Source: a virus
Reading direction: 5' to 3' (one strand)
DNA length: 41,619 nucleotides
IMG/VR virus record: IMGVR_UViG_3300027754_000190
Span: 1 to 41,619 of that record
In this document: positions 5 through 40,260 of the stretch, one piece after another
Layout of the letters: each line of letters opens with the position of its first letter
Position numbering within the stretch: the first letter of the stretch is position 1
Translations under genes and position numbers: made by a program
The notes under the pieces: generated by a model
The model's database searches: none
What the model was told of the DNA's origin: nothing
What the model saw: only the letters and a program-made list of their open reading frames with translations

Positions 5-412
5 ATGGCAGTATTTACAAAAGTAAACGGAACTACACAACCAGTATTTGCACTGGACGTGGCCAACGGTTCTATCGCAGGAACAGCTAACGTAGCTGCT
101 CAAGGTCCAGTTCAGATCCAAGGTCCTAAACTAGACTTTTTCACATTGACAGCTAACGCTGCTTTGACCAATGCCGGTAACGTCAATGGTTATTTGAACA
201 ATGTGTTGCAGTCTATCCAACAGACTGGTACAATCGCAATTTACCAAGCCGGCGCTACAGCTGGTACAATCAGCATTGCTATCTACCCAAGCGGCGCATA
301 TACCACAGCTACCCTGGTTGCTGCTGCTCAAGTGGCCAATGCAACTGGTGGCTTGAACATTGGTATCCCAACTGGCAATGTAAGCAACACAGCCAGCTTC
401 ACTAGCCTGTAA
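5..412 (+). CDS. Putative virion structural protein, 135 aa
   Basis: Small Ala/Thr/Gly/Asn-rich protein of beta-strand type composition with very few charged residues and no signal peptide or membrane segment. I do not recognise a named family. Composition and position at the head of a block of virion-type genes, followed at once by a strong terminator, suggest an abundant structural protein such as a head decoration or tail component; this is inference. The start lies four bases from the window edge, so its ribosome binding site cannot be judged. Confidence 0.6.
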   Translation: MAVFTKVNGTTQPVFALDVANGSIAGTANVAAQGPVQIQGPKLDFFTLTANAALTNAGNVNGYLNNVLQSIQQTGTIAIYQAGATAGTISIAIYPSGAYTTATLVAAAQVANATGGLNIGIPTGNVSNTASFTSL

Positions 413-7646: not shown

Positions 7647-9962
7647 ATGAAAATTACAACAGTACAAAAGCGCGATGGCAGCAGAGAGCCATTGGCATTA
7701 GAAAAATGGCAGGCTCAGATTGCCAAGGTATGTGCAGGCATAGCAGATGTTAGCCAAAGCATGGTAGAGATCAAGGCACAGATGCATTTTTACGATGGTA
7801 TCAGCACAAGAGAAATCGACGGAGTTACTCTACGTGCTATAGTAGACCTGATTGATGTGGAATCAAATCCAGATGTAGGGCATACCAATTATCAATATGT
7901 GGCCGGCAAACAACGCCTGAGTATGCTGCGAAAAGATGTGTATGGAAGTTACGCAGTTCCACATCTATATGAAATTATTAAAAAGAATGTGGCCACTGGA
8001 TTGTATACTCCAGAATTGTTAGAATGGTATACTGAAGACGATTGGAATCGTATGGGAGACATGATCGATCATGACAAAGACGAGAGCCTGAGTTATGCTG
8101 CGATTGAACAATTGATTGAAAAGTATCTGGTAAAGAATCGTGCCACCAAGGAAACATATGAAACGCCACAGGTCCGTTATATGGTTGCGGCAGCAACAGT
8201 CTTTCACAAAGAAGAGCCGAATACAGCGCGTATGCGATATATTAAAGAATATTATAACGCAGCTTCAGATGGCCTGTTTACTCTTGCTACTCCTGTTCTC
8301 GCTGGGCTTGGCACTCCAACAAAACAATTCAGTTCGTGCGTTCTTATCCGCAGTGATGATGACTTAGATAGCATATTTGCCTCCGGGGAAATGATGGCCA
8401 AGTATGCCAGCAAGCGAGCTGGCATTGGGTTGGAGATTGGCCGACTGCGTCCATTGGGCAGTCCCATCCGTGGTGGCGAAATTATGCACACCGGCATGAT
8501 ACCTTTTCTAAAAAAGTGGTTCGGTGATCTACGTAGTTGTAGTCAAGGAGGTATTCGTAATGCTAGTGCTACTGTTTTTTATCCTATTTGGCATCATCAG
8601 TTTGATGATCTTATCGTACTCAAGAATAACCAGGGTACAGAAGAGACCCGCGTTCGACACATGGACTATGGAGTGGTCTTATCCGCCTTCTTCTGGAGAC
8701 GATTCAAGAACAAAGAGAACATAACATTCTTTGACCCCAACGAAGTACCAGACTTGTATGAAGCATTTTACAAAGATACTGCACTATTTGAAGAACTTTA
8801 CTGCCGGTATGAAAAGCAGAAAGGCCTGCGTAAGAAAACGATGGCTGCGGAGGAAGTTTTCAAGAGTGGTATTCTCAAAGAACGAACAGACACTGGACGT
8901 ATATATCTAGTGTTCATTGATAACGTGATGAGCCAAGGACCGTTTGATCCGGAATATCACACCATTTACCAGAGTAACCTTTGCTGTGAAATACTTTTGC
9001 CTACTCGTTCCTTTAAGCGGTTGGATGATACTGATGGTCGCATCGCACTTTGCACATTGGGAAGCATCAACTGGGGAGCCTTCCGTAATCCAGAAGATAT
9101 GCGTAGGGCTGCCCGCATTCTGCACCGCAGTCTCAATAATATTCTTGATTACCAAGACTTCTTATCCATCCAATCACGCCTGTCCAACGATGAGATCCGA
9201 CCACTGGGCATCGGCATCACCAACCTTGCCTACTGGCACGCCAAGAGAGGCCTGCGTTACGGGGAGAAGGATGCTCTAGCTGAGATCAAAACCTGGATGG
9301 AACACATGGCTTTCTATCTCACAGAAGCCAGTGTGGAACTGGCCAAAGATCGCGGCGCATGCCTAGGAAGCGAACACACACGTTATGGTCGAGGAGTATT
9401 TCCTTGGGAATTACGAGCCCAGGGTGTGAATGAACTTGCCGACTTTGCTCCAGAATTAGATTGGGAGACCTTACGCACCAACATGAAAACTCATGGTGTT
9501 CGCAACGCCACACAGATGGCCGTGGCACCTGTGGAATCTAGTTCAGTGGTGATCAACTCAACCAATGGCATTGAAATGCCCATGAGCTTGATCTCAGTGA
9601 AAGAAAGTAAGGCTGGTAGTTTTGTGCAGGTGGTGCCCGAATATCATCGACTGAAAAACAAATATCAGATGATGTGGGAACAAAAAGACTGCGAAGGTTA
9701 TCTCAAGACTGCTGCTGTGATTGCAGCGTATGTTGATCAATCAATCAGCACCAACACATTCTACAATCCTGCACACTTTGCAGATCGCAAAGTACCGATC
9801 ACATTGATCGCCCGAAACCTTATGCAATCGCATGCATGGGGATTGAAAACTTTTTACTACAGTCTGATCAACAAGCAAGGCAGCAAAGAGGCAGCAGAGG
9901 ATGCGCCACTCATGCCCATAGACTTTGATCTTGAGGAAGATTGTATCGCTTGTAAATTATAA
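7647..9962 (+). CDS. nrdA: Class Ia ribonucleotide reductase, large (alpha) subunit
   Basis: 771 aa, full length. It reduces ribonucleoside diphosphates to deoxyribonucleotides. An N-terminal ATP-cone (about 1-90, KRDGSREPLALEKW) suggests allosteric control. The active site is complete: QFSSCVLI and ALCTLGSINW carry the redox cysteine pair, SNLCCEI the thiyl-radical Cys with Asn and Glu, and LKTFYYS the radical-transfer Tyr-Tyr. The C-terminal CIACKL (Cys766, Cys769) is the shuttle that glutaredoxin re-reduces. nrdB and a glutaredoxin follow directly, giving a complete dNTP supply unit. Confidence 0.97.
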   Translation: MKITTVQKRDGSREPLALEKWQAQIAKVCAGIADVSQSMVEIKAQMHFYDGISTREIDGVTLRAIVDLIDVESNPDVGHTNYQYVAGKQRLSMLRKDVYGSYAVPHLYEIIKKNVATGLYTPELLEWYTEDDWNRMGDMIDHDKDESLSYAAIEQLIEKYLVKNRATKETYETPQVRYMVAAATVFHKEEPNTARMRYIKEYYNAASDGLFTLATPVLAGLGTPTKQFSSCVLIRSDDDLDSIFASGEMMAKYASKRAGIGLEIGRLRPLGSPIRGGEIMHTGMIPFLKKWFGDLRSCSQGGIRNASATVFYPIWHHQFDDLIVLKNNQGTEETRVRHMDYGVVLSAFFWRRFKNKENITFFDPNEVPDLYEAFYKDTALFEELYCRYEKQKGLRKKTMAAEEVFKSGILKERTDTGRIYLVFIDNVMSQGPFDPEYHTIYQSNLCCEILLPTRSFKRLDDTDGRIALCTLGSINWGAFRNPEDMRRAARILHRSLNNILDYQDFLSIQSRLSNDEIRPLGIGITNLAYWHAKRGLRYGEKDALAEIKTWMEHMAFYLTEASVELAKDRGACLGSEHTRYGRGVFPWELRAQGVNELADFAPELDWETLRTNMKTHGVRNATQMAVAPVESSSVVINSTNGIEMPMSLISVKESKAGSFVQVVPEYHRLKNKYQMMWEQKDCEGYLKTAAVIAAYVDQSISTNTFYNPAHFADRKVPITLIARNLMQSHAWGLKTFYYSLINKQGSKEAAEDAPLMPIDFDLEEDCIACKL

Positions 9963-9971
9963 GGGAATAAT

Positions 9972-11075
9972 ATGTCAAAACAACAATACAATCTCGCCAC
10001 ACGTACCGATTATCTCAGTCGCAAGATGTTCCTGGATCCCGAAGGTCCGGTCACCATCCAACGATTTGAAGAAGTCAAGTACAACAAGATACAAAAGATC
10101 GAGCAGACTGCACGTGGATTCTTTTGGGTGCCTGAAGAGATCAGTCTCAGCAAAGATGCCAACGACTTCAAGGACGCATCCGATGCAGTGAAACATATCT
10201 TCACCTCAAACCTGCTGCGCCAAACAGCCCTGGACAGTCTGCAAGGGCGTGGCCCAGCACAGGTATTCACTCCGTGTGTGAGCTTGCCCGAGCTGGAAGC
10301 ACTCATGTACAACTGGAGTTTCTTTGAAACCAACATCCACAGCCGCAGTTACAGCCACATCATCCGCAACATCTACAATGTGCCCAAGGATGTGTTCAAC
10401 ACCATCCATGACACTAAAGAAATTGTGGACATGGCAAGCAGTGTGGGCAACTACTACGACAAACTGCATGAACTCAACTGCTTCAAAGAGATCAATCCAA
10501 AGACAGTGAGTGAACCCAGCCACATAAAGGCCATATGGATGGCCTTACATGCCAGTTATGCACTGGAAGCATTCCGATTCATGGTATCGTTTGCCACCAG
10601 CCTGGCCATGGTAGAAAACAAGATCTTTATCGGCAATGGCAACATCATCAGCCTGATCCTGCAGGACGAACTGCTACACAAAGAGTGGACAGCGTTCATG
10701 ATCAACCAGGTCATAAAAGAAGATCCACGTTTTGCAGAAGCCAAAGCTGAATGCGAAACTGAAGTGTACGAGTTGTACGTGGATGTGATCCGTGAAGAAA
10801 AAACCTGGGCTGATTATCTATTCAATAAAGGTCCAGTGATCGGGCTGAATGCCAATGTGCTCAAGGACTTTGTGGACTACACTGCTGTGGCTGCACTGAA
10901 AGAAATTGGTATCAAATACCAGAGCTCTGCCCCTAGAAGCACACCAATTCCCTGGTTCAACAAGCATGTGGACACCAGCAAGAAACAAACTGCGCTGCAA
11001 GAGAACGAATCAACTAACTATGTTATCGGAGTCATGAGCGACAGCATTGACTACGATCAATTGCCTAATTTATAA
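9972..11075 (+). CDS. nrdB: Class Ia ribonucleotide reductase, small (beta) subunit
   Basis: 367 aa. It holds the di-iron centre and tyrosyl radical used by NrdA. Ligand motifs are present: RQTALDSLQGRGP (Asp), LEALMYNWSFFETNIHSRSY (Glu, Glu, His and the radical Tyr), LEAFRFMVSFA (Glu), and ILQDELLHKEW (Glu, His). A radical Tyr is kept, so it looks like the classical Tyr/Fe type. AAGGGA precedes the start, nine bases after nrdA ends. Confidence 0.97.
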   Translation: MSKQQYNLATRTDYLSRKMFLDPEGPVTIQRFEEVKYNKIQKIEQTARGFFWVPEEISLSKDANDFKDASDAVKHIFTSNLLRQTALDSLQGRGPAQVFTPCVSLPELEALMYNWSFFETNIHSRSYSHIIRNIYNVPKDVFNTIHDTKEIVDMASSVGNYYDKLHELNCFKEINPKTVSEPSHIKAIWMALHASYALEAFRFMVSFATSLAMVENKIFIGNGNIISLILQDELLHKEWTAFMINQVIKEDPRFAEAKAECETEVYELYVDVIREEKTWADYLFNKGPVIGLNANVLKDFVDYTAVAALKEIGIKYQSSAPRSTPIPWFNKHVDTSKKQTALQENESTNYVIGVMSDSIDYDQLPNL

Positions 11076-11083
11076 GGAAACCA

Positions 11084-11305
11084 ATGAAAGCCATAGTATG
11101 GTCAAAGGACCAATGCCCCTACTGCGACCAAGCCAAAGCATTGCTGAAGTCTCGCAATATTGAATTTGAAGAACGAAACGTGAGCCACGACTGGACTCGC
11201 GAACAACTGTTAGAAGCAGTACCAAATGCTCGTTCCGTGCCACAGATCTTCTTGGATGAAGAACTAGTGGGCGGTTTCACTGAACTCAGACAACGTCTTA
11301 CTTGA
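11084..11305 (+). CDS. grx: Glutaredoxin
   Basis: 73-aa glutaredoxin with the dithiol active site CPYC (Cys11, Cys14), the cis-Pro motif SVPQIF and the glutathione-binding GGFTEL. Placed 8 bases after nrdB with its own AAGGAAA, it is the likely electron donor to the C-terminal cysteines of NrdA. Comparable in role to T4 NrdC. Confidence 0.95.
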   Translation: MKAIVWSKDQCPYCDQAKALLKSRNIEFEERNVSHDWTREQLLEAVPNARSVPQIFLDEELVGGFTELRQRLT

Positions 11306-11327
11306 AAACATATACAGAAAGTTTAAA

Positions 11328-11636
11328 ATGAAAATTCCAATCACCCCAGGTCAAGTTTATACCTTTAAATTAAACTCAGGAGAAGAACTCATCGCCAAAG
11401 TGTCTGCAGAAGAGTCTAGTGGCTGGCTAGAGATCGAGCATCCAGTCAGCGTGGCGCCGGGACCGCAAGGTATGGGATTGGTGCCCAGTCTATTCACCGC
11501 AGATCCTACCGAAAGACTACAACTAAATACTTCTAGTGTGAGTCTTTATGCACTCACTGATGATCCGGTCAAGATGAAATATATTGAAGCAACCACTGGA
11601 ATCAAGATACCTGAAAAGAAAATCATATTGGGATAA
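11328..11636 (+). CDS. Conserved small phage protein with possible Sm-like beta-barrel, 102 aa
   Basis: The N-terminus GQVYTFKLNSGEELIAKVSA looks like the first strands of a small SH3/Sm-like barrel. I believe the family is common in T4-like marine phages, but no function is known to me. It lies between glutaredoxin and the PAAR gene, with one base before the PAAR start. A CTAAATAC octamer at 11523-11530 inside it could serve the downstream virion genes. Confidence 0.6.
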   Translation: MKIPITPGQVYTFKLNSGEELIAKVSAEESSGWLEIEHPVSVAPGPQGMGLVPSLFTADPTERLQLNTSSVSLYALTDDPVKMKYIEATTGIKIPEKKIILG

Positions 11637-11637
11637 T

Positions 11638-11904
11638 ATGCCGGCAGTGCAACGCTTGGGAGACAGAGACACAGGTGGCGGAATAATCACTTCTGCTGTT
11701 AACTCAGTGCGTGTGAACAATCTCCCAGTGTCAGTAAATGGCAGTACCGTGAGCCCGCATAACTCTCGCCCCACACATGTTCCTGTAACTGCCAACGGCA
11801 TCAAGAGTGTGAGAGTTGCCAATCGACCCATCAATGTAGCAGGTAACGCAGACACCTGCGGACATGCACGAACTGGTGGCAGCGAAAATGTAAGAATCGG
11901 CTGA
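11638..11904 (+). CDS. PAAR-domain spike-tip protein, 88 aa
   Basis: PAAR proteins cap the central tail spike of contractile phages and type VI secretion systems with a metal-bound sharp tip (T4 gp5.4). The whole protein is one PAAR repeat: MPAVQRLGDRDTGGG at the start, paired SVRVNNLPVSVNG and SVRVANRPINVAG strands, and His/Cys candidates for metal binding in SPHNSRPTH and DTCGHART. The ATG at 11638 was chosen over an upstream in-frame TTG because the PAAR fold begins there. The next gene follows after one base. Confidence 0.88.
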   Translation: MPAVQRLGDRDTGGGIITSAVNSVRVNNLPVSVNGSTVSPHNSRPTHVPVTANGIKSVRVANRPINVAGNADTCGHARTGGSENVRIG

Positions 11905-11905
11905 T

Positions 11906-13999
11906 ATGGCTCGAAGTATATTAACTCCGTTGCAACTGACTGCATCTGCGGCATTGCTAAACAATCAAGGTCTCAAGGCATTGCCCACGGCCTTGGCCTC
12001 TGCTATATCGCAGTATAATGCTTTTACTATCACCGCAGCAATCAACGGTGCTATCAACAACGCAGCAGGTAAGACCTGGTGCTCAAGTACCACATTGACG
12101 TCATTGCAAACCATACGTGGATCAGGCACAGGTTGTCCTGCATTGGGCAACAGCATACCACCTGCGTACACCACACTGACTCCGGTGGCCAATCCGTCGG
12201 GCTTGACAGGACTTGTTTCACAAACTGCCAACTATTATCTAGGATATGGGGATAGCGGAAGATTCGCACAGGGATTCATGACCGTAGAGGGATTCATTGG
12301 AACCACTAACGATTATATCAACACCGCAGTCAATGCTCCTACTTACCTTGGACCCAGTTTTTCCAGCATGGATGCCTTGACCACTGCGGATATCACCGTG
12401 GTCAACTCAGACCTTGGCCCATTTGGTACAGACCTTGCCAATCAAGGCCAACTGACCGATCTAGGTAACCTGGAACTATACGGCACACCAGCAGGATTGA
12501 TACAACAGATCACTCGGGTAGCCGGCATTTCAAATGCTGTGGTACCGGCTCTACAATCTGCATTGACCGCTGCTGGACTAAATTCACAAAACATACAGGA
12601 TCTGGTAAACGATAATCGCATCAGTTTGTTCAAACCTGATGGGCTCACCGATAATGAATTTGATCAACTGCAACTGCAAGCATACTATGCCATGAACATG
12701 GTCATGGGCGATGATCTTGCACAGATACTGAGTATACTGAGAGTGACCACTCCGGACATTGACTCACTGGCAGATCTATTGGATCCTATAAAAGTATTTC
12801 CAGAAAGCTATCTCACTTTACAGACTCCTAGTCCGTACGGCCCGGTTCTAATCTTCAATCCCAACAGCAGTGTCAATTCAGCAGTACAACCCATAGTGAA
12901 TTCTTATCTGCCCAATGCGTCGGGGTGTGACGAACTGGGCAAGGTCATACCTCCAGGCGATGCCATAGCCAACAAAGCCATACAGGTGGCGTTCCAACAG
13001 ATACCCAACATAGCAGGCACTGATTTGCCTTCATTGGCAGAAAGTGTAAAAGGATATTTGGACCAGACGTGGAATCCTGAACAACCATATCTGGCCAACG
13101 ACCTAGTGGCCAACGGATCGCCTATTCCTGAGTTTTATCGAGCACAACAAGAGGTACCTGTGGGCACAGATATCAACAATACCAGTTATTGGTTGCCAAC
13201 CACACTAGGCGGCCAGAGTACCATGACTGGGTTACCCGATATTGTAGCATTGACCACTCCGGTGCCATCTTCGGTCACTACGTTTTTTGATACCAACATA
13301 GCCACTGGCACCGGGCCCAATGGCACAATCACCACGTGTGATGTATTGGGAACGGCCATCAACTACAATAGTCTTGACACCTATCTCAACACGGCCAGCA
13401 CAGCATTGACTGCGATTGTGGGATCGGCCAGTTACAATACATTATTGGATCTGTATCAACGTATTGGGAATGTGTGCAACAGCACCTATGGCGATCCGGC
13501 AGTGAGTGTGACCGTTCCAGCAGGTGCAGGTGCAGGAGTTTATGCCAATACATTTCCTTACTACGGTGGCGACTTGGCATTACAGACCCTGATACCATTG
13601 GCCAATACTGCATTGGACAGCGTGGTTGCAGCCTGGCCCACACAGACTACCGCAATGAACACAGCATGGAATGCTATATGTACCTCTCTAAGTTCGGAGA
13701 AAGCATTACAGACTCGTGCCGGGATCAATTATTTCAATCTGTTGGCCGGCGAGCAACCCAGTGTGATGGCCTTTGTGCAAAACTTGCCATCATATGCCAT
13801 GATGACTGAAACATGTCAAGCAGCTGAGTTTTTGGAAAGCATAGCCGACACCACCATAATCGGTGGCCAGGCCATAATCGGTGCCATGCGAGAAGCACGT
13901 AATCAAACATCGTATCAAGCATCTGGGTTGTTTGCAGCCAATCACATACCAGCCGATCCACCGATCACCCCATCACCTGCGGTGGTTCCGGTGCAATAA
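11906..13999 (+). CDS. Large putative baseplate/tail structural protein, 697 aa
   Basis: Large, mainly helical, Asn/Thr/Ala-rich protein without signal peptide or membrane segment. It sits directly behind the PAAR tip gene, which suggests a role at the tail tip or baseplate; I do not recognise a named T4 counterpart. Residues about 387-432 (WNPEQPYLANDLVANG, FYRAQQEVPVGT, YW) form an aromatic-rich module also found inserted in the tailspike, and may bind carbohydrate. The start is one base after the PAAR stop. Confidence 0.65.
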   Translation: MARSILTPLQLTASAALLNNQGLKALPTALASAISQYNAFTITAAINGAINNAAGKTWCSSTTLTSLQTIRGSGTGCPALGNSIPPAYTTLTPVANPSGLTGLVSQTANYYLGYGDSGRFAQGFMTVEGFIGTTNDYINTAVNAPTYLGPSFSSMDALTTADITVVNSDLGPFGTDLANQGQLTDLGNLELYGTPAGLIQQITRVAGISNAVVPALQSALTAAGLNSQNIQDLVNDNRISLFKPDGLTDNEFDQLQLQAYYAMNMVMGDDLAQILSILRVTTPDIDSLADLLDPIKVFPESYLTLQTPSPYGPVLIFNPNSSVNSAVQPIVNSYLPNASGCDELGKVIPPGDAIANKAIQVAFQQIPNIAGTDLPSLAESVKGYLDQTWNPEQPYLANDLVANGSPIPEFYRAQQEVPVGTDINNTSYWLPTTLGGQSTMTGLPDIVALTTPVPSSVTTFFDTNIATGTGPNGTITTCDVLGTAINYNSLDTYLNTASTALTAIVGSASYNTLLDLYQRIGNVCNSTYGDPAVSVTVPAGAGAGVYANTFPYYGGDLALQTLIPLANTALDSVVAAWPTQTTAMNTAWNAICTSLSSEKALQTRAGINYFNLLAGEQPSVMAFVQNLPSYAMMTETCQAAEFLESIADTTIIGGQAIIGAMREARNQTSYQASGLFAANHIPADPPITPSPAVVPVQ

Positions 14000-14043
14000 C
14001 TGCTCAAAAACCTGTGAAAATGCACAAGTCTGAGCATATGAGC

Positions 14044-14051
14044 TTAAATAT
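14044..14051 (+). promoter_or_regulatory. Late-promoter-like box TTAAATAT upstream of porin
   Basis: Lies 14 bases upstream of the -35 of the porin sigma70 promoter, giving the porin two candidate start signals of different timing. Confidence 0.35.
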
Positions 14052-14064
14052 TACTCAGTGGCAA

Positions 14065-14093
14065 TTGACATCCTAGAGATAAATTGCTATAAT
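14065..14093 (+). promoter_or_regulatory. Sigma70 promoter of the porin gene
   Basis: TTGACA (14065-14070), 17-bp spacer ending in TGC (extended -10), TATAAT (14088-14093). Both hexamers match consensus exactly. The porin ATG lies 28 bases downstream of the -10. Confidence 0.9.
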
Positions 14094-14121
14094 CAACTAC
14101 TTCAATTTTTAAGGAGACTTC

Positions 14122-15021
14122 ATGAAGAAATTAGTAACAGTATTGGCCCTCGCATTGGCCGCCTCAGCCGTTTGGGCGCAAACTGCACCTCAAGTGAGTG
14201 TGTATGGTAAAGTACGGGTGTATGAAGAATCATACACACTGGGCACCGCCAGTGCTCTCACTCGCTTGACCAATGATTCAAGCCGTTTGGGTTTCAAAGC
14301 CACTGGCGACGTTGGTAGCGGTATTACTGCTACTGCTGTGCTAGAAACTGGCGTGGCTGTAGATGCTCCAAGTGCTACCACACTGGGTGATCGCACTGCT
14401 CGTTTTGATCTCAGCAATAGCCTGGGTTCTGTGGGCATGGGCCGTGACAAGCATTCAGCAGTTCGTGCATTGGATAACTTTGATGTATTTGGCAATGCAT
14501 ATGGCACCATCGTGGGCACCGTGCATAACGCACAAGGCTCGCGTGTGCAGAACGCATTGTTTGTGAGCAGCGCACCTATCGCTGGTTTCACTGCTAATTG
14601 GCAGATGGCCAACAGCGAAGTTGCCGGTACTGCTAATACCACAGCAGGCAGCATTGACTACACACAAGGACCATTTGCAGCCACATTCGCTCGCTATGAC
14701 GATGGCATTTCTAGTTCTACCAATATCGCCGGTGTGAAATACAACCTAGCATCTACTGGTACTACCGTGTTTGGTCTGTACAGCAATGACGTGGCAACCA
14801 ATGTCAGCACCACTGGTAAGAGCATTGGTGTAAGCCAAGCAATCACTGGTCAATTGAGTGTGATGGCCAACTACGGTGAAACCGACACTGGCAAAACCGG
14901 TCGCGGGGTTGGTGTAGCTTATGCAATGAACAAAGCATTGAATTTCCATGCTCGTTACAGCATGATTGACACAACCACTGACGTTACCCAATACGGTGTG
15001 GGCGTTGAATACAATTTCTAA
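14122..15021 (+). CDS. Outer-membrane porin of the Gram-negative porin (Porin_4) type
   Basis: 299 aa. The signal peptide MKKLVTVLALALAASAVWA is cleaved before QTAPQ. The mature protein starts with a strand (VSVYGKVRVY), contains SRLGFKATGDVGSG and LSNSLGSVGMGRD, both typical of Burkholderiales trimeric porins, and ends in GVGVEYNF with the C-terminal Phe needed for BAM recognition. It is somewhat shorter than typical family members (about 330-380 aa), so some loops, possibly the constriction loop, may be trimmed. The gene has its own promoter, AAGGAG and terminator. A phage porin could change permeability or mask receptors against superinfection; this is inference. Confidence 0.92.
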   Translation: MKKLVTVLALALAASAVWAQTAPQVSVYGKVRVYEESYTLGTASALTRLTNDSSRLGFKATGDVGSGITATAVLETGVAVDAPSATTLGDRTARFDLSNSLGSVGMGRDKHSAVRALDNFDVFGNAYGTIVGTVHNAQGSRVQNALFVSSAPIAGFTANWQMANSEVAGTANTTAGSIDYTQGPFAATFARYDDGISSSTNIAGVKYNLASTGTTVFGLYSNDVATNVSTTGKSIGVSQAITGQLSVMANYGETDTGKTGRGVGVAYAMNKALNFHARYSMIDTTTDVTQYGVGVEYNF

Positions 15022-15039
15022 TCCCAATTAGAACAAACC

Positions 15040-15065
15040 AAATAGGCCCTCTGGGGCCTATTTTT
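15040..15065 (+). terminator. Intrinsic terminator of the porin gene
   Basis: Perfect 10-bp stem AAATAGGCCC (15040-15049) / GGGCCTATTT (15054-15063) with loop TCTG and continuing T-run. Confidence 0.92.
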
Positions 15066-15116
15066 ATGACCGTGAGTATGCGAACATTCATATATAATGC
15101 ATATGAGGAATGTTGA

Positions 15117-15374
15117 ATGACAGATCCCAGGGCAACCGCACGGGAGTTACTGGATGAATGGAATCGTTACAAAGTAGCGAGGCCACGAAATCACGCATTA
15201 GATATTCAATACGAAAAAGATCAATTATCTAAATGGGCAGAGATATTACATCGTAATATGTTATGGAGCACAGATTTGATTGAGATAACCGAAAACTGCC
15301 ATCAGTTTCAAACTAGATTATCTAGATTCAAAGATAATATTATCATAGAATTGCTGACCCACGGCTCAGTTTAG
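15117..15374 (+). CDS. Hypothetical helical protein, 85 aa
   Basis: Charged, all-helical protein (ARELLDEWNRYKVARPRN and further helices). No family recognised. GAGGAA precedes the start. A TATAAT at 15093-15098 lacks a good -35. The 3' end overlaps a terminator, so this may be a single-gene unit between the porin and the early operon. Confidence 0.6.
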   Translation: MTDPRATARELLDEWNRYKVARPRNHALDIQYEKDQLSKWAEILHRNMLWSTDLIEITENCHQFQTRLSRFKDNIIIELLTHGSV

Positions 15375-15386
15375 TGTGGGTTTTTT
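15357..15386 (+). terminator. Intrinsic terminator after the 85-aa gene
   Basis: ACCCAC (15357-15362) / GTGGGT (15376-15381) with a 13-nt loop and six Ts. The stop codon lies in the loop. Confidence 0.75.
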
Positions 15387-15392
15387 GCAACA

Positions 15393-15432
15393 AAAAATCC
15401 CAACTTTTTGTTGAAAAATCGCAACTTTCTGT
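15393..15432 (+). repeat. Two 19-bp near-identical direct repeats upstream of an early promoter
   Basis: AAAAATCCCAACTTTTTGT (15393-15411) and AAAAATCGCAACTTTCTGT (15414-15432) differ at two positions and lie 21 bp apart, two helical turns. The second copy places CAACT 22 bp before the -35 of the promoter at 15444, the same distance as the CAACT dyads at two other promoters. Confidence 0.7.
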
Positions 15433-15443
15433 GTAGAATTCGG

Positions 15444-15472
15444 TTGACCCGAATTGCCCGAACTGCTATAAT
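15444..15472 (+). promoter_or_regulatory. Sigma70 early promoter
   Basis: TTGACC, 17-bp spacer with GCCC at spacer positions 7-10 and TGC at its end, TATAAT, followed by ACACACAT. Drives the 61-aa gene at 15506. Confidence 0.88.
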
Positions 15473-15505
15473 ACACACATAGACAGCAACAAACAGGAGT
15501 TCCAA

Positions 15506-15691
15506 ATGCAAGTTACCATCGACATCCCTAAAAAAGTCATCAACACCATCAAAAAATCTGCAGAGGTCTATGGCAATGCAACGCCCACAGATGCTCAAAT
15601 CAAAGAGTTCTTGCAATGGCATGTGCTGGGCATCTACGTCGACTTCCACGGCGAAGATCTGGAAGATATTGCAGCTGAAAATTTCAATTAA
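15506..15691 (+). CDS. Hypothetical early protein, 61 aa
   Basis: Small protein with an amphipathic N-terminal half (VTIDIPKKVINTIKKSAEVY) and an acidic C-terminal half (DFHGEDLEDIAAENF). No family recognised. AGGAG lies 9 bases before the start under a strong consensus promoter, so expression is probably immediate-early and high. Confidence 0.65.
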   Translation: MQVTIDIPKKVINTIKKSAEVYGNATPTDAQIKEFLQWHVLGIYVDFHGEDLEDIAAENFN

Positions 15692-15696
15692 AATCG

Positions 15697-15708
15697 CAAC
15701 TGGAGTTG
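15697..15708 (+). promoter_or_regulatory. Dyad CAACT-GG-AGTTG upstream of early promoter
   Basis: Inverted repeat whose first base lies 22 bp before the -35 at 15719. The same dyad at the same distance occurs at 40463-40474. Candidate operator or activator site. Confidence 0.55.
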
Positions 15709-15718
15709 GTAAAATCGG

Positions 15719-15747
15719 TTGCCCAGAAATAGCCAAAATGCTATAAT
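15719..15747 (+). promoter_or_regulatory. Sigma70 early promoter
   Basis: TTGCCC, 17-bp spacer ending in TGC, TATAAT. From 15733 the DNA is identical for 37 bp to the promoter/leader at 16025. Confidence 0.82.
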
Positions 15748-15769
15748 ATGGGCATGTTCAGTAAAAAGG
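15733..15769 (+). repeat. 37-bp direct repeat, copy 1 (promoter plus leader)
   Basis: Covers half the spacer, the TATAAT, a short leader and the AAAAAGG ribosome binding site. Identical to 16025-16061. Indicates duplication of a promoter-leader cassette with different downstream genes. Confidence 0.85.
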
Positions 15770-15777
15770 CTCGCACC

Positions 15778-16005
15778 ATGAAAGCAAAAATCCTGATTAC
15801 ATCCATAGACAACATGAAGTTGTTCCAGGGTCGACTGCCCACCCGGCGCTGGGGGTTTTGCGAAATCGTGCGCGAGGTCACTATTGAGCCCTGCCCGCAT
15901 GGTGTATATGAAGATGGCAACTATGGCTATGTCAAGATCGACGGGAAAAAAGTCCGTGTGATCAACGGTCGTGGTGGTGAAACATCATTCGAAATCAGCC
16001 GATAA
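15778..16005 (+). CDS. Hypothetical early protein, 75 aa
   Basis: Beta-rich small protein with a basic stretch (RLPTRRWGFCEIVREV) and a C-terminal YGYVKIDGKKVRVINGRGG. No family recognised. The ATG at 15778 is preferred because AAAAAGG lies at a proper distance. An in-frame ATG at 15748 would overlap the promoter and lie upstream of the expected transcription start. Confidence 0.65.
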   Translation: MKAKILITSIDNMKLFQGRLPTRRWGFCEIVREVTIEPCPHGVYEDGNYGYVKIDGKKVRVINGRGGETSFEISR

Positions 16006-16010
16006 AACGG

Positions 16011-16039
16011 TTGACCAGAATCGCCCAAAATGCTATAAT
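16011..16039 (+). promoter_or_regulatory. Sigma70 early promoter
   Basis: TTGACC, 17-bp spacer with GCCC at positions 7-10 and TGC at its end, TATAAT. Second copy of the 37-bp promoter-leader repeat. Confidence 0.88.
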
Positions 16040-16874: not shown

Positions 16875-16903
16875 TTGACCATTAATTCCATAACTGCTAT
16901 AAT
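16875..16903 (+). promoter_or_regulatory. Sigma70 early promoter
   Basis: TTGACC immediately after the previous stop, 17-bp spacer ending in TGC, TATAAT, then ACACACATCGCAACAAGGAG. Confidence 0.87.
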
Positions 16904-24831: not shown

Positions 24832-24860
24832 TTGACACACCTCCTGTCTCGTGCTATAAT
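24832..24860 (+). promoter_or_regulatory. Sigma70 promoter of the membrane protein-clpX region
   Basis: TTGACA, 17-bp spacer ending in TGC, TATAAT: an exact consensus with extended -10. Begins two bases after the previous stop and about 190 bp before the next gene. Confidence 0.92.
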
Positions 24861-25376: not shown

Positions 25377-26945
25377 ATGTTCCTCAGTCTTATCACCTTG
25401 GCGGTGGCCTTGAGCCTCAGCGTTATTGCCGCCTATTACAGCATAGCAGGCCTCACTGCGATCTTTGCCGCAGCCGTGATTCCTATCATGGTCATGGGAT
25501 CGATACTAGAAGTGGCCAAGGTGGTTGTGACCATATGGTTGCACGAGTATTGGCACCGAGCCAGGTGGTTGATGAAACTATACTTGGTGCCAGCAGTGGT
25601 GATGTTGATGGTAATCACCAGCATGGGTATCTTTGGTTTCCTATCAAAAGCACACAGCGATCAAAGCCTGGTGTCTGGAGATGTACAAGCCAAGATAGCA
25701 GTGTATGATGAAAAAATCCGGACTGACAAGGAGAACATAGATGTTAATCGCCGAGCTCTTAAACAAATGGACGAGGCTGTGGACCAAGTTATGGGTCGCA
25801 GTTCAGACGAAAAAGGTGCGGACAAGGCTGTGGCTGTACGGCGCGGCCAACAAAAAGAACGTCAGCGCCTGCTTGCGGAAATTGCAGAAAGTCAAAAGCG
25901 TATTGCAGCACTCAATGAAGAACGTGCGCCGATCGCAGCCGAAGTTCGCAAGGTCGAGGCTGAAGTTGGTCCCATCAAATACATAGCAGCACTGATCTAC
26001 GGTGACAACCCTGACACCAATGTGTTAGAACGGGCTGTGCGGTGGGTTATCATCTTGTTGGTATGCGTGTTTGATCCGCTAGCCATCATGATGTTGTTGG
26101 CTGCTACAGAAAGTCTCAAGTGGGCTAGAGAAAAGATCGAGGAAAAGATTGAGGACCCTACAGAAGATATATCCGAGGACGGATACAAAACACCCTGGAC
26201 CTATGAGCCAGACGATGGACCATTGACCGATGAGCAAATTGATCAGATCAAAGACATAGCAGCACAAAAAGAATTTGATATCAACGATCATCCATACTTA
26301 TTCACACCTGCTGGCAATCACACACCGCCGGGTATAGATCCTGTACCGATCCAGGTATATCGTCCTGAACCCAGTGATCCTGAGCTAGAACCTTGCTACA
26401 AGTGTGGTACACCTTTGCTCAATGCTGCTGGCATTGGACCATTCTGTCCAAACAAGGAATGTGATGTCGCCGATGGTCCTTTCTTAAGAGAAGACCGGCC
26501 TGAGATTGTGTTGGCAGGAATCTTGACAGAAGATGAAGATATTGACGAAGAAGATCCTCGTGTGAAATCCAGGATCAAACGCTGGAAACTTGATCATCCA
26601 TTAGACACCTTAAAGAACCAACGTGTGCGTCTCAGGATGGGAATCATCAAACAATTGCCTTGGATGGAATATCCTGACAATACATTCGGCGATACTTTTC
26701 CTACTGATCCCAAGCGCGGTGATACGTTTGTTCGCACAGATGTACAACCTACCGTGGTATACAAGTTCAATGGGCAGTCTTGGATGGAGGTTGACAAAAA
26801 CCTTGCAGACAGCTACACTTACGATGACGCCTACATTAACTACCTGATTGAAAAATTAGATAGCGGCGAATATGATCCGGACTTGCTGAGTGATAGTGAG
26901 AAAGATCAAGTGGCAGAACAACTCAGGAAACAAAATAACCAATGA
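25377..26945 (+). CDS. Large phage membrane protein with coiled coil and Cys4 motif, 522 aa
   Basis: The first 110 residues form a multi-pass membrane domain (two closely spaced helices, then [20 protein letters not shown]). A long periplasmic or cytoplasmic coiled coil follows, then another membrane helix ([20 protein letters not shown]). The tail is acidic, with CYKCGTPLL and CPNKEC (zinc-ribbon-like), then [20 protein letters not shown] know similar proteins in T4-like marine phages, function unknown. The start at 25377 avoids overlap; an in-frame ATG at 25338 is the alternative. Overlaps clpX by 4 bases. Confidence 0.65.
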
Positions 26946-28147
26946 AAATTAACGAATCAACTGATACCTGTAGCTTCTGTTCCAAACACAAAGATTCGGT
27001 GACCAAACTTATTGTAGGTGAGTCGGTGGCTATCTGTAATGAATGTGTGGAACTATGCGAAACTCTGCTGAAAGATGAACTTGTGACTCCACCCAGCGAT
27101 CCATCAGCATCACTGGATCCAATGGAGATCAAACAACATCTTGACCGCTATGTGATCGGTCAGGATCCGGCCAAACAAGTACTGAGTGTAGCAGTGGTAA
27201 ATCATTATAAACGTATCAACAACAAAGAATCTGATGTGGAGATTGAAAAGACCAACATCTTGATGTTAGGCCCCACTGGCTCGGGCAAAACTTTGTTGGC
27301 CCGCACTATCGCACGTTATCTAGACGTGCCTTTTGTTATCGCAGACGCTACCAGTCTTACCGAAGCCGGGTATGTGGGCGATGATGTAGAAAGCATGATC
27401 AGTAGATTGTTTGCTGCGTCTGGCAACGACGTAGACAAAACACAGCGCGGTATTGTGTTTATTGATGAGATTGACAAGATCAGTCGCAAAAGTGAGAGTG
27501 CCAGTATCACTCGAGATGTCAGCGGAGAAGGTGTGCAACAGGCATTGCTCAAGTTGGTGGAAGGTACCAAATGCAGGATCACCCCGCAGGGTGGCCGCAA
27601 GCATCCATCTGGTGAAACTGTGGAGATTGATACCAAGAATATCTTGTTTATCGGTGGTGGTGCGTTTGTGGGACTAGATAATCTGGTAAAAAATCGCACA
27701 AAGGGCACAACCATCGGCTTTGGTGCCAACATGGACAGAGACACATCCATGCATCTGGCACAGACCACCCCAGAAGATCTCATGCGCTATGGTATGATTC
27801 CAGAGTTTGTGGGGCGATTCCAAAATTGGGTATCGCTTGCTGAACTCAGCAAACAGGATCTAGTGCAAATCCTAACACAGGTTAGACACAGCTACATTTC
27901 GCAATACAGCTGGTTATTCAATTGCGACAATGTAGAACTAACATTCACTGACTCTGCGTTGGATCTCATTGCCGAACGCACATTGCAGAACAAAACCGGC
28001 GCACGTGGCCTGCATTCAGAACTGGAACGGGTATTGCTGCCACACATGTTCTATCTGCGCCAATATCACAAACAAGGAATAAAAACCGTGACGATCGATG
28101 TGGATCAAGTGGCGGAACCTGTGGCACTAAAAGCAGCTAATCTTTAG
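26942..28147 (+). CDS. clpX: ClpX-type AAA+ unfoldase
   Basis: 401 aa, nearly full length. ClpX unfolds tagged proteins and feeds them to ClpP. Zinc-binding domain: Cys10, Cys13, Cys31, Cys34. Walker A GPTGSGKT at 110-117, Walker B FIDEID at 173-178, pore loop GYVG with Tyr144, RKH loop at 219-221, and the ClpP-docking loop IGF at 258-260. So it keeps both substrate handling and ClpP contact. No clpP is in the window, so it would use host ClpP. The host-like sequence suggests transfer from a bacterium. Start ATGA overlaps the upstream stop. Confidence 0.96.
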
Positions 28148-31730: not shown

Positions 31731-32987
31731 ATGAAAAAAATTGGATTTATTGGTATTGGTAAACTGGGGCTTGATTGTGCCGAAGTCATGGCACAACAGC
31801 ACGAAGTCAGAGGCTATGATATTTACCCACGAACCAGTGACTCAGTAAAAGTCTGCGATATTGACGAGTTGGTAAACGAAAGCGAATGGATCTTTATCGC
31901 TGTGCCCACACCACATGCCGAAGGCTATGATGGATCGGTACCTTCCAGCCACATGGAACCGAGAGATTTTGGGCATGACGCAGTGATCGATGCCATCAGC
32001 AAAGTCAATGCTCATGCACAAGATTCCAAGAAAGTGGTGCTGATCAGCACAGTATTGCCGGGTACCACCCGTAAGAACTTTGTGCCATTGCTGGACTCAA
32101 AACACCAATTCTTGTACAACCCCTATCTCATTGCCATGGGATCGGTAAAATGGGACATGGTCAATCCAGAGATGATCATGATCGGCACAGAAGATGGAGA
32201 CTGGAATGGTGTAGCCGGAGAATTAAAAGATCTATACGACACTGTGATGCAGAACAATCCGCGCTATGAGATCGGCACCTGGGACGAGTGCGAAGCTATC
32301 AAGATTTTCTACAACACATTCATTTCGGCCAAAGTGGGCTTGGTCAATATGGTACAGGACTTTGCCATGAAAATTGGCAACATCAATGTGGATGTGGTCA
32401 CTGACGCACTAGCACGTAGCACCATGCGTATCATGGGACCCAAGTACATGACAGCAGGCATGGGCGATGCAGGTGCCTGCCATCCACGTGACAACATTGC
32501 TCTGCGTTGGCTAGCACAAGAATATGAAATTGGCTACGACTTGTTTGACACAGTGATGCATGCTCGTGAGATCCAGGCCAAAAACCTGGCCAAGTTCCTG
32601 GTAGAGCAGTCCGGCGATTGGATCATTGGAGAACACTTGCCCATCGCCATACATGGTAAAGCCTACAAGCCAGATGTTCCTTATTGTATCGGATCATACT
32701 CCACACTGGTAGGACATTATATCAAAGAACTGGGTCATAAAGTTGTTTATCTTGATCCATTAGCAGACGATCCTGCCGACGTTGTCAACGAATTACAAGG
32801 ACCTCACGTGGTGCTGTGGGCACACAATCGCAAGATCACATACGAATACACTGGCGATCAATTGGATACTCAACCCTATTGCGTAATACCGGGTGGCAGC
32901 ATCATCGTAGATCCTTGGCGCAAGCTGAATCAAACCGCTGACGGTATCACAGTGATCCATTATGGAAACACCCGCAATCATACTTAG
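31731..32987 (+). CDS. UDP-glucose/GDP-mannose dehydrogenase family protein
   Basis: 418 aa. These enzymes oxidise a nucleotide sugar to the uronic acid with NAD. The Rossmann motif GIGKLG is at 8-13, AVPTPH corresponds to the conserved cofactor-loop motif, and Cys250 in AGACHPRDN is the catalytic cysteine (family GGxCxPKD). The product would be UDP-glucuronate or a similar sugar acid for polysaccharide or DNA modification. AAAGGA precedes the start. It overlaps the next gene by 26 bases. Confidence 0.88.
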   Translation: MKKIGFIGIGKLGLDCAEVMAQQHEVRGYDIYPRTSDSVKVCDIDELVNESEWIFIAVPTPHAEGYDGSVPSSHMEPRDFGHDAVIDAISKVNAHAQDSKKVVLISTVLPGTTRKNFVPLLDSKHQFLYNPYLIAMGSVKWDMVNPEMIMIGTEDGDWNGVAGELKDLYDTVMQNNPRYEIGTWDECEAIKIFYNTFISAKVGLVNMVQDFAMKIGNINVDVVTDALARSTMRIMGPKYMTAGMGDAGACHPRDNIALRWLAQEYEIGYDLFDTVMHAREIQAKNLAKFLVEQSGDWIIGEHLPIAIHGKAYKPDVPYCIGSYSTLVGHYIKELGHKVVYLDPLADDPADVVNELQGPHVVLWAHNRKITYEYTGDQLDTQPYCVIPGGSIIVDPWRKLNQTADGITVIHYGNTRNHT

Positions 32988-34417: not shown

Positions 34418-34446
34418 TTGACAAACATATATAAATCATGTATAAT
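34418..34446 (+). promoter_or_regulatory. Sigma70 promoter of uvsE
   Basis: TTGACA, 17-bp spacer, TATAAT, then ACACAC and ATG at 34453. The expected start site falls on the A of ATG, so the mRNA would be leaderless. Confidence 0.85.
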
Positions 34447-34452
34447 ACACAC

Positions 34453-35478
34453 ATGACTATACCCCAAATTGGTTTTTGTTGCAAATGGCTCAATGATCCG
34501 TCCGAATGCGGCGGCATGAAAGTCAATGCTGTGGACCGTGATCTAAACGGCCGATCAACCACCATGCGCTGGCTGCGCGAACACAAGGGCGAAGCCGAAC
34601 AGCGACAATGGGACATAATGAATCACAATGCCGCTGCGGCAGTTCGACTGATTGAACGTGTGGCCACACTGCCCCAGGGTCGACGAATGGTGCGGCTGGG
34701 TTCGGAAATGTTGCAAGGATATACTGAACCCAGCTGGATTGACTGGTGGCAACGACAAGAAATCCAAGACCACTGTGCCAAGATCTTTGCTCCTGTAGGC
34801 GAAACTGCTCGTAGGCTGGGTGTGCGGATCAGTTTCCATCCCGGTCAGTTCTGTGTGCTGGCCAGTGAAGCAGATGAAATTGTGGAACGCAGCATACTAG
34901 AATTTGAATATCATGTGGACATGGCTCGTTGGATGGGCTATGGCAGCTCTTGGCATGATCATGGTTTCAAGATAAATGTGCATTTGAGCGGTAAAGGTGG
35001 CCCCGCTAAATTCCTACGCACTTTGGGTAGGCTAACTCCCGAAGCTAGGAATCTAATCGCCATCGAGAATGATGAGATGACAAATGGTATCGACGTTACT
35101 TTGGCTGTGGCTGAGCATTGTGCTCTTACGCTGGACATCCACCACCACTGGATCCGCACCGGTGAATACATCACGCCCGACGACCCTAGGTCGCGTCGCG
35201 TTGTGGAGTCTTGGCGCGGTACTCGTCCTGCTCTTCACTACAGTGTTAGTCGTGAAGACGTTTTGGTGGATCACGATCCCGGAACTAGACCAGATCTCGC
35301 ACAGCTACTTGACCGGGGATACCGTAGGCAGAAACTTCGAGCACATTCGGACTTTCTTTGGAACTCGGCTGTGAATGACTGGGCATTGACATTCAGCAAA
35401 GATTGGGATATCCAGGTCGAAGCCAAAGGCAAGAATTTGGCCAGCCAACAACTGTATGAGCAATCGCTGAGTCAATGA
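34453..35478 (+). CDS. uvsE: UV-damage endonuclease (UVDE family)
   Basis: 341 aa. TIM-barrel enzyme that nicks DNA 5' to UV photoproducts. Metal-site motifs are present: IGFCCKWLND at the N-terminus, ISFHPGQFCVLAS, INVHLSGKGG, IENDE, DIHHHW and the C-terminal RAHSDFLWN and EAKGKNLA. The ATG at 34453 is preferred over the in-frame ATG at 34438, which overlaps the -10. No ribosome binding site is visible for either. Useful to a phage in sunlit water. Confidence 0.94.
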   Translation: MTIPQIGFCCKWLNDPSECGGMKVNAVDRDLNGRSTTMRWLREHKGEAEQRQWDIMNHNAAAAVRLIERVATLPQGRRMVRLGSEMLQGYTEPSWIDWWQRQEIQDHCAKIFAPVGETARRLGVRISFHPGQFCVLASEADEIVERSILEFEYHVDMARWMGYGSSWHDHGFKINVHLSGKGGPAKFLRTLGRLTPEARNLIAIENDEMTNGIDVTLAVAEHCALTLDIHHHWIRTGEYITPDDPRSRRVVESWRGTRPALHYSVSREDVLVDHDPGTRPDLAQLLDRGYRRQKLRAHSDFLWNSAVNDWALTFSKDWDIQVEAKGKNLASQQLYEQSLSQ

Positions 35479-40231: not shown

Positions 40232-40260
40232 TTGACCACAAATCCGGTCCGTGCTATAAT
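40232..40260 (+). promoter_or_regulatory. Sigma70 early promoter inside a terminator hairpin
   Basis: TTGACC, 17-bp spacer ending in TGC, TATAAT. The spacer contains the left arm and the loop contains the -10 of the hairpin at 40240-40278. Confidence 0.85.

Follow-up and report, generated by a model that had tools for sequence, protein, structure and literature searches.

What is an outer-membrane porin gene doing in the DNA of a T4-like phage: is it a genuine phage gene, does it move as a unit, and what might it contribute to infection? We addressed these questions for the window, by which we mean the whole 41,619-nucleotide stretch of IMG/VR record IMGVR_UViG_3300027754_000190, and for related viral contigs. 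The features around the porin gene are as follows.

7647-9962, plus strand: nrdA, class Ia ribonucleotide reductase large subunit, a syntenic anchor
9972-11075, plus strand: nrdB, ribonucleotide reductase small subunit, a syntenic anchor
11906-13999, plus strand: upstream flank, a 697-aa protein, 33-35% identical in most relatives
14065-14093, plus strand: sigma70-type promoter, TTGACA-17-TATAAT, 12/12 match, with TG ahead of the -10 element
14111-14116, plus strand: ribosome-binding site AAGGAG, 5 nt upstream of the ATG, read from the sequence
14122-15021, plus strand: porin coding sequence, 299 aa, intact; modelled as a 16-stranded outer-membrane barrel
14122-14178, plus strand: signal peptide, residues 1-19, AxA-type, predicted cleavage after VWA, read from the sequence
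14452-14541, plus strand: loop L3 and constriction region, residues 111-140, from the AlphaFold2 secondary structure
15040-15066, plus strand: intrinsic terminator, a 10-bp hairpin (15040-15063) followed by a U-run
15117-15374, plus strand: downstream flank, an 85-aa ORF, variable among relatives

The encoded protein has the ends of a general porin, namely a signal peptide (MKK at the start, SAVWA/Q at the predicted cleavage site) and a C-terminal aromatic residue (VEYNF, with Phe as the last residue), and both are present in all orthologues. An AlphaFold2 model built on an alignment of the viral orthologues (mean pLDDT 77.5) has the 16 strands and the L3 constriction loop of general porins, with a helix at residues 112-119 within L3 and loops L4-L8 of only 2-8 residues each. 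The top Foldseek matches of this model were Omp32 (E 3.7e-15, TMq 0.74, 20% identity) and BpsOmp38, both Burkholderiales porins, and OmpF and PorB were also found. At the sequence level, the protein has no match in Pfam (including Porin_4), PHROG or NCBIfam. A phmmer search recovered PorB (E 2.7e-4), and a profile of the phage family searched against PDB porins recovered Omp32 (E 3.5e-11), BpsOmp38 and PorB. A sequence-only reading of this DNA had described a complete Burkholderiales-like porin, and the reading frame, its two ends, the modelled fold and the structural matches all agree with that description.

A gene of such bacterial appearance could in principle have entered the contig by misassembly, or through fusion of a bacterial fragment to phage DNA. 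Apart from the look of the gene nothing points that way, and we regard the chance of it as negligible. Both junctions recur in contig L003, which is 99.7% identical at the DNA level across positions 8704-15841 of the window, and again in diverged phages such as L006; a pattern scan of a bacterial genome collection did not find the porin family. Orthologues were identified at 30 IMG/VR loci, with 53-100% identity, all of them open from signal peptide to terminal Phe. At 25 of these 30 loci, the gene order is the same: nrdA, nrdB, small ORFs, a gene of 640-700 aa and the porin. An artefactual junction or absence from related phages would have undone the sequence-only reading; since L003 and the diverged phages repeat both junctions, the refuting observations are not there, and the gene is a real phage gene.

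The gene preceding the porin belongs to a family of 640-1167 aa that neighbours the porin slot (window 11906-13999, L027:6003-7922, L103:11915-15415) and occurs as a tandem pair in L076 and L092. The family has no significant match in Pfam, PHROG or phage records, and the AlphaFold model of the 697-aa member in the window (pLDDT 58) was uninformative. Genes for B12-binding radical SAM proteins lie just 3' of the porin, on either strand, at L006:9830-11398 (minus strand), L011:7797-9458 (minus strand) and L032:8944-10557.

The porin carries its own transcription signals. The perfect sigma70 promoter noted earlier is confirmed, and it belongs to the same class as other promoters of this phage: TTGACN-16..18-TATAAT occurs at seven sites in the window against 0.08 expected, most of them with TGC ahead of the -10 element. 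Further TTGAC(A/C)-17-TATAAT sites with TGC, mostly before small ORFs, are located at 15444-15472, 16011-16039, 16875-16903, 24832-24860 and 40232-40260, and the class is also seen in the relatives L059, L089 and L164. The terminator is as strong as had been supposed, with a folding energy of -15.1 kcal/mol (z -3.5; 0 of 200 shuffled sequences folded equally well). A hairpin and T-run follow the porin stop codon in all orthologues despite differing stem sequences (GGCCC, CCCTGC, GGGCA and ACCCACC types), so that the terminator is preserved among the phages as an element while its sequence varies. The late-type box proposed at 14044 (TTAAATATTA) did not hold up: with one mismatch allowed there are four matches against 2.55 expected, which is not above chance, and TATAAATA is absent from the vicinity of the porin gene.

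Comparison of relatives suggests how the gene travels. Among nrdB relatives, the porin is present at every locus whose nrdB is 90% identical or more and that extends 4 kb or more downstream; most loci with nrdB at 84-87% identity lack it. In L059 and L089 the slot is empty, the 697-aa-type gene being followed directly by the promoter of the next gene. In L107 and ten further loci (most of L164-L175), the slot holds a different porin, which matches Pfam Porin_4 and has a TTGACT-type promoter and a terminator of its own; the two porins were never found together in one locus. The window-type porin also occurs, with unrelated flanks, in a jumbo lineage (gp23-positive contigs of 212-303 kb). Between L019 and L018/L015, DNA identity of 86% is limited to the porin ORF and its immediate leader (protein identity 90%), and the TerL proteins of those lineages (L113 vs L115) are only 68% identical. 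A tree test rejected a single clade of the porins found in the nrd context (p-AU 6e-4). With its own promoter and terminator, a slot that is empty or refilled in relatives, and movement between phage lineages that involves the ORF alone, the porin has the marks of a moron; the comparisons support its interpretation as a mobile, moron-style single-gene cassette, as had been suggested. No lysogen is known, and related jumbo phages are generally regarded as lytic.

Placement of the phage rests on terminase and capsid. A gp23 search matched jumbo contigs and gave no match in window-type contigs, so TerL was used to type the window lineage. The closest relatives of the window-type TerL and of the jumbo-type capsid come from PA5oct-like jumbo phages within the T4 superfamily, in keeping with the original description of a T4-like phage. 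Judging by the IMG sample numbers, these are probably freshwater phages. Elsewhere in the window are a ClpX-like AAA+ protein with the ClpX zinc finger (26942-28147), conserved in relatives, and two genes that score below the curated cut-off, a nucleotide-sugar (UDP-glucose type) dehydrogenase (31731-32987) and a UvsE-like UV endonuclease (34438-35478).

The porin had also been expected to point to the host group, and to that extent it does. For both slot porins, most bacterial neighbours come from Burkholderiales or from related betaproteobacteria, and among plasmid records the PstS protein of related phages (described below) is nearest to Burkholderiales by a narrow margin. The host is thus probably a Burkholderiales-type betaproteobacterium, a group that the data fit and within which they do not name a host. 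Naming the lineage from a porin tree was dropped because the plasmid and bacterial relatives mostly share 25-28% identity across the greater part of their length, and neither of two scans of the bacterial genome collection, one of them by pattern, found a close source.

What the porin does is best approached through its neighbourhood in relatives. In the jumbo lineage, the porin is followed by pstS, identified through Pfam (E 5.7e-38) and through PHROG ('phosphate transporter subunit', 2e-70); the PstS protein is 53-58% identical to bacterial PstS. A PstS-based search gave 39 viral loci, 33 of which had enough upstream DNA to be tested. In 12 of these 33, from the jumbo lineage and its kin, a window-type porin ends 57-106 bp ahead of the pstS frame; the loci are not independent, several being near-copies of one phage, and the lineages are mostly correlated. 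The intervening gap holds tandem 11-bp Pho-box-like repeats (ATGTAATATTACTGTCACAATTATGTCAC), which occur at 2.4/kb at pstS starts and at 0.03/kb elsewhere in the same loci (about 77-fold). In L143 and L144, an unrelated barrel-like protein takes the place of the porin before pstS (L143:4064-4615 and the matching ORF of L144; 183 aa, with a signal peptide and the ending LSFNF, directly 5' of pstS). Four window-type contigs (G004, G007, G009 and G011) have pstS 19-22 kb downstream of the porin, and pstS is likewise present on one contig that carries the alternative Porin_4 porin, a contig listed twice, as L147 and as L169. At L014:1147-1334, a Pho-box-like repeat (CTGTCACAATATTGTCAA) persists after a porin that is not followed by pstS, as if pstS had been lost. 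A PhoX-like reading of L076:18354-19925 was dropped, there being no Pfam match. The Pho boxes belong to pstS and not to the porin: upstream of the porins, in the window and the relatives checked, none was found (best score 8-11 of 14). Because the lineages are mostly correlated, and because neither the window nor its 157-kb relative G010 contains pstS, the link between porin and pstS is suggestive and not proven.

We favour, with modest confidence, the view that during infection the porin of this large-genome phage sustains or raises the permeability of the outer membrane to small nutrients, chiefly phosphate or other small anions. Host sigma70 RNA polymerase would transcribe the cassette from its early-type promoter, presumably early in infection, and the terminator would end the transcript. 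The host Sec and BAM machineries would export the protein, and the modelled fold predicts a 16-strand pore in the infected cell's outer membrane. This pore may pass small nutrients, with a putative preference for phosphate and other anions, and in the relatives the phage PstS beside it would capture phosphate in the periplasm. Nutrient permeability fits best because it accommodates the early-type promoter, the strong constraint on the protein, the repeated recruitment of barrels and the pairing with PstS. It also counts in its favour that the closest solved fold is that of the anion-selective Omp32 and that eyelet arginines align: R55, R91 and R141 of the phage protein, invariant in the phage family, correspond to R38, R75 and R133 of Omp32, which we take to be its eyelet arginines. 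Against it, such arginines are also present in cation-selective OmpF-type porins, and the mature protein has a slightly acidic rather than a basic overall charge (18 K/R vs 21 D/E). The lack of pstS in the window and G010, the missing Pho box at the porin, the non-independence of the pstS loci and the existence of a phage (HTVC008M) with a porin and no pstS count against it too.

The main competing explanation is that the phage porin replaces or dilutes a host porin used as receptor by the same or competing phages, that is, receptor replacement or superinfection exclusion. An early-type promoter would also suit this role. So would the very short loops L4-L8 of the model (2-8 residues), since they leave little surface for tail fibres; short conserved loops would thus fit a decoy porin and weigh against the nutrient role. 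There is also precedent in the lambdoid phage porins, for which receptor replacement has been proposed. That precedent, however, is lysogenic, a setting in which lasting immunity pays; a general reading of the window showed no lysogeny gene. Selection on the protein is purifying (dN/dS 0.108 over 52 close pairs), and it is the external loops that are most constrained (L4-L8 0.065, L1-L3 0.09, barrel 0.12), whereas an arms race would be expected to diversify them. Receptor replacement also leaves the porin-pstS pairing unexplained. We judge it possible but unlikely, and favour nutrient permeability over receptor masking, as the evidence of the neighbourhood (pstS and its Pho boxes) tilts that way. 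Were receptor replacement correct, this T4-superfamily phage would have an exclusion system of a rare, porin-based kind.

A less probable account, to which we give little weight, invokes other physiology, such as leakiness, relief of envelope stress or passage of a non-phosphate solute (carboxylates, nucleotides or amino acids), with the adjacency to pstS a by-product of an accessory-gene hotspot. Omp32, the closest solved structure, has been described with bound malate, the window type has no pstS near its porin, and the accessory genes around the slot do turn over. Unrelated barrels nevertheless recur beside pstS or in the slot more than a single hotspot would obviously give.

Beyond nutrient permeability for the window porin itself, a broader and more tentative proposal, somewhat less probable to our minds, is that large freshwater phages trade the outer-membrane half of a phosphate route, placing unrelated barrels beside a Pho-box-controlled PstS so that the path would run from outer membrane to periplasm. 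Among the loci examined, no other version of the barrel is as widespread as the window porin, which also travels alone. Accounts of phosphate-related auxiliary genes in phages usually place them at the inner membrane and in the periplasm (pstS). If the proposal is right, some large phages remodel the outer membrane to feed their replication, which would be relevant in phosphate-poor lakes. The literature searched, outside most subscription journals, contained no phage porin paired with pstS and no traded porin slot.

Several known systems invite comparison. Omp32 of Comamonas/Delftia acidovorans (PDB 2FGQ and 1E54; anion-selective according to the PDB) has the 16-strand fold modelled for the window porin. 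It is a bacterial gene product of 332 residues, whereas the mature phage porin has about 280 and, in the model, very short loops L4-L8.

Phage porins are already known, and BFVD contains predicted viral porins. The 'outer membrane porin' of pelagiphage HTVC008M (AGE60376.1) and its pelagimyophage relatives is, like ours, encoded by a phage of the T4 superfamily and comparable in length, and the two are homologous (tblastn 8e-6, HMM 1e-13). It differs in its marine SAR11 host, its acidity (16 K/R vs 36 D/E), its very long branch in the tree, its position between baseplate genes and the lack of pstS in the genome. The pelagimyophage type forms a conserved family of its own, with 58 loci (L176-L233) in viral contigs related to HTVC008M.

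The lambdoid porins Lc (of PA-2) and NmpC likewise represent a phage-borne porin carried as an extra gene, but they belong to temperate phages and to the enterobacterial OmpC family; our literature search, again outside most subscription journals, found no paper on this precedent. The glnK-amtB-ompL cassettes of viruses from oxygen-depleted seawater, with probable Bacteroidetes hosts (PMC8115048), resemble the porin-pstS arrangement of the relatives: a virus-encoded porin adjoins a gene for nutrient acquisition, and a promoter and a terminator are present. They differ from it in concerning nitrogen rather than phosphorus, in having a different porin and in those probable hosts. Finally, the pstS auxiliary metabolic genes of cyanophages are, like those of the relatives described here, phage homologues of PstS; the arrangement in these relatives differs in that pstS has a porin of the outer membrane as its partner and that the host is likely betaproteobacterial.
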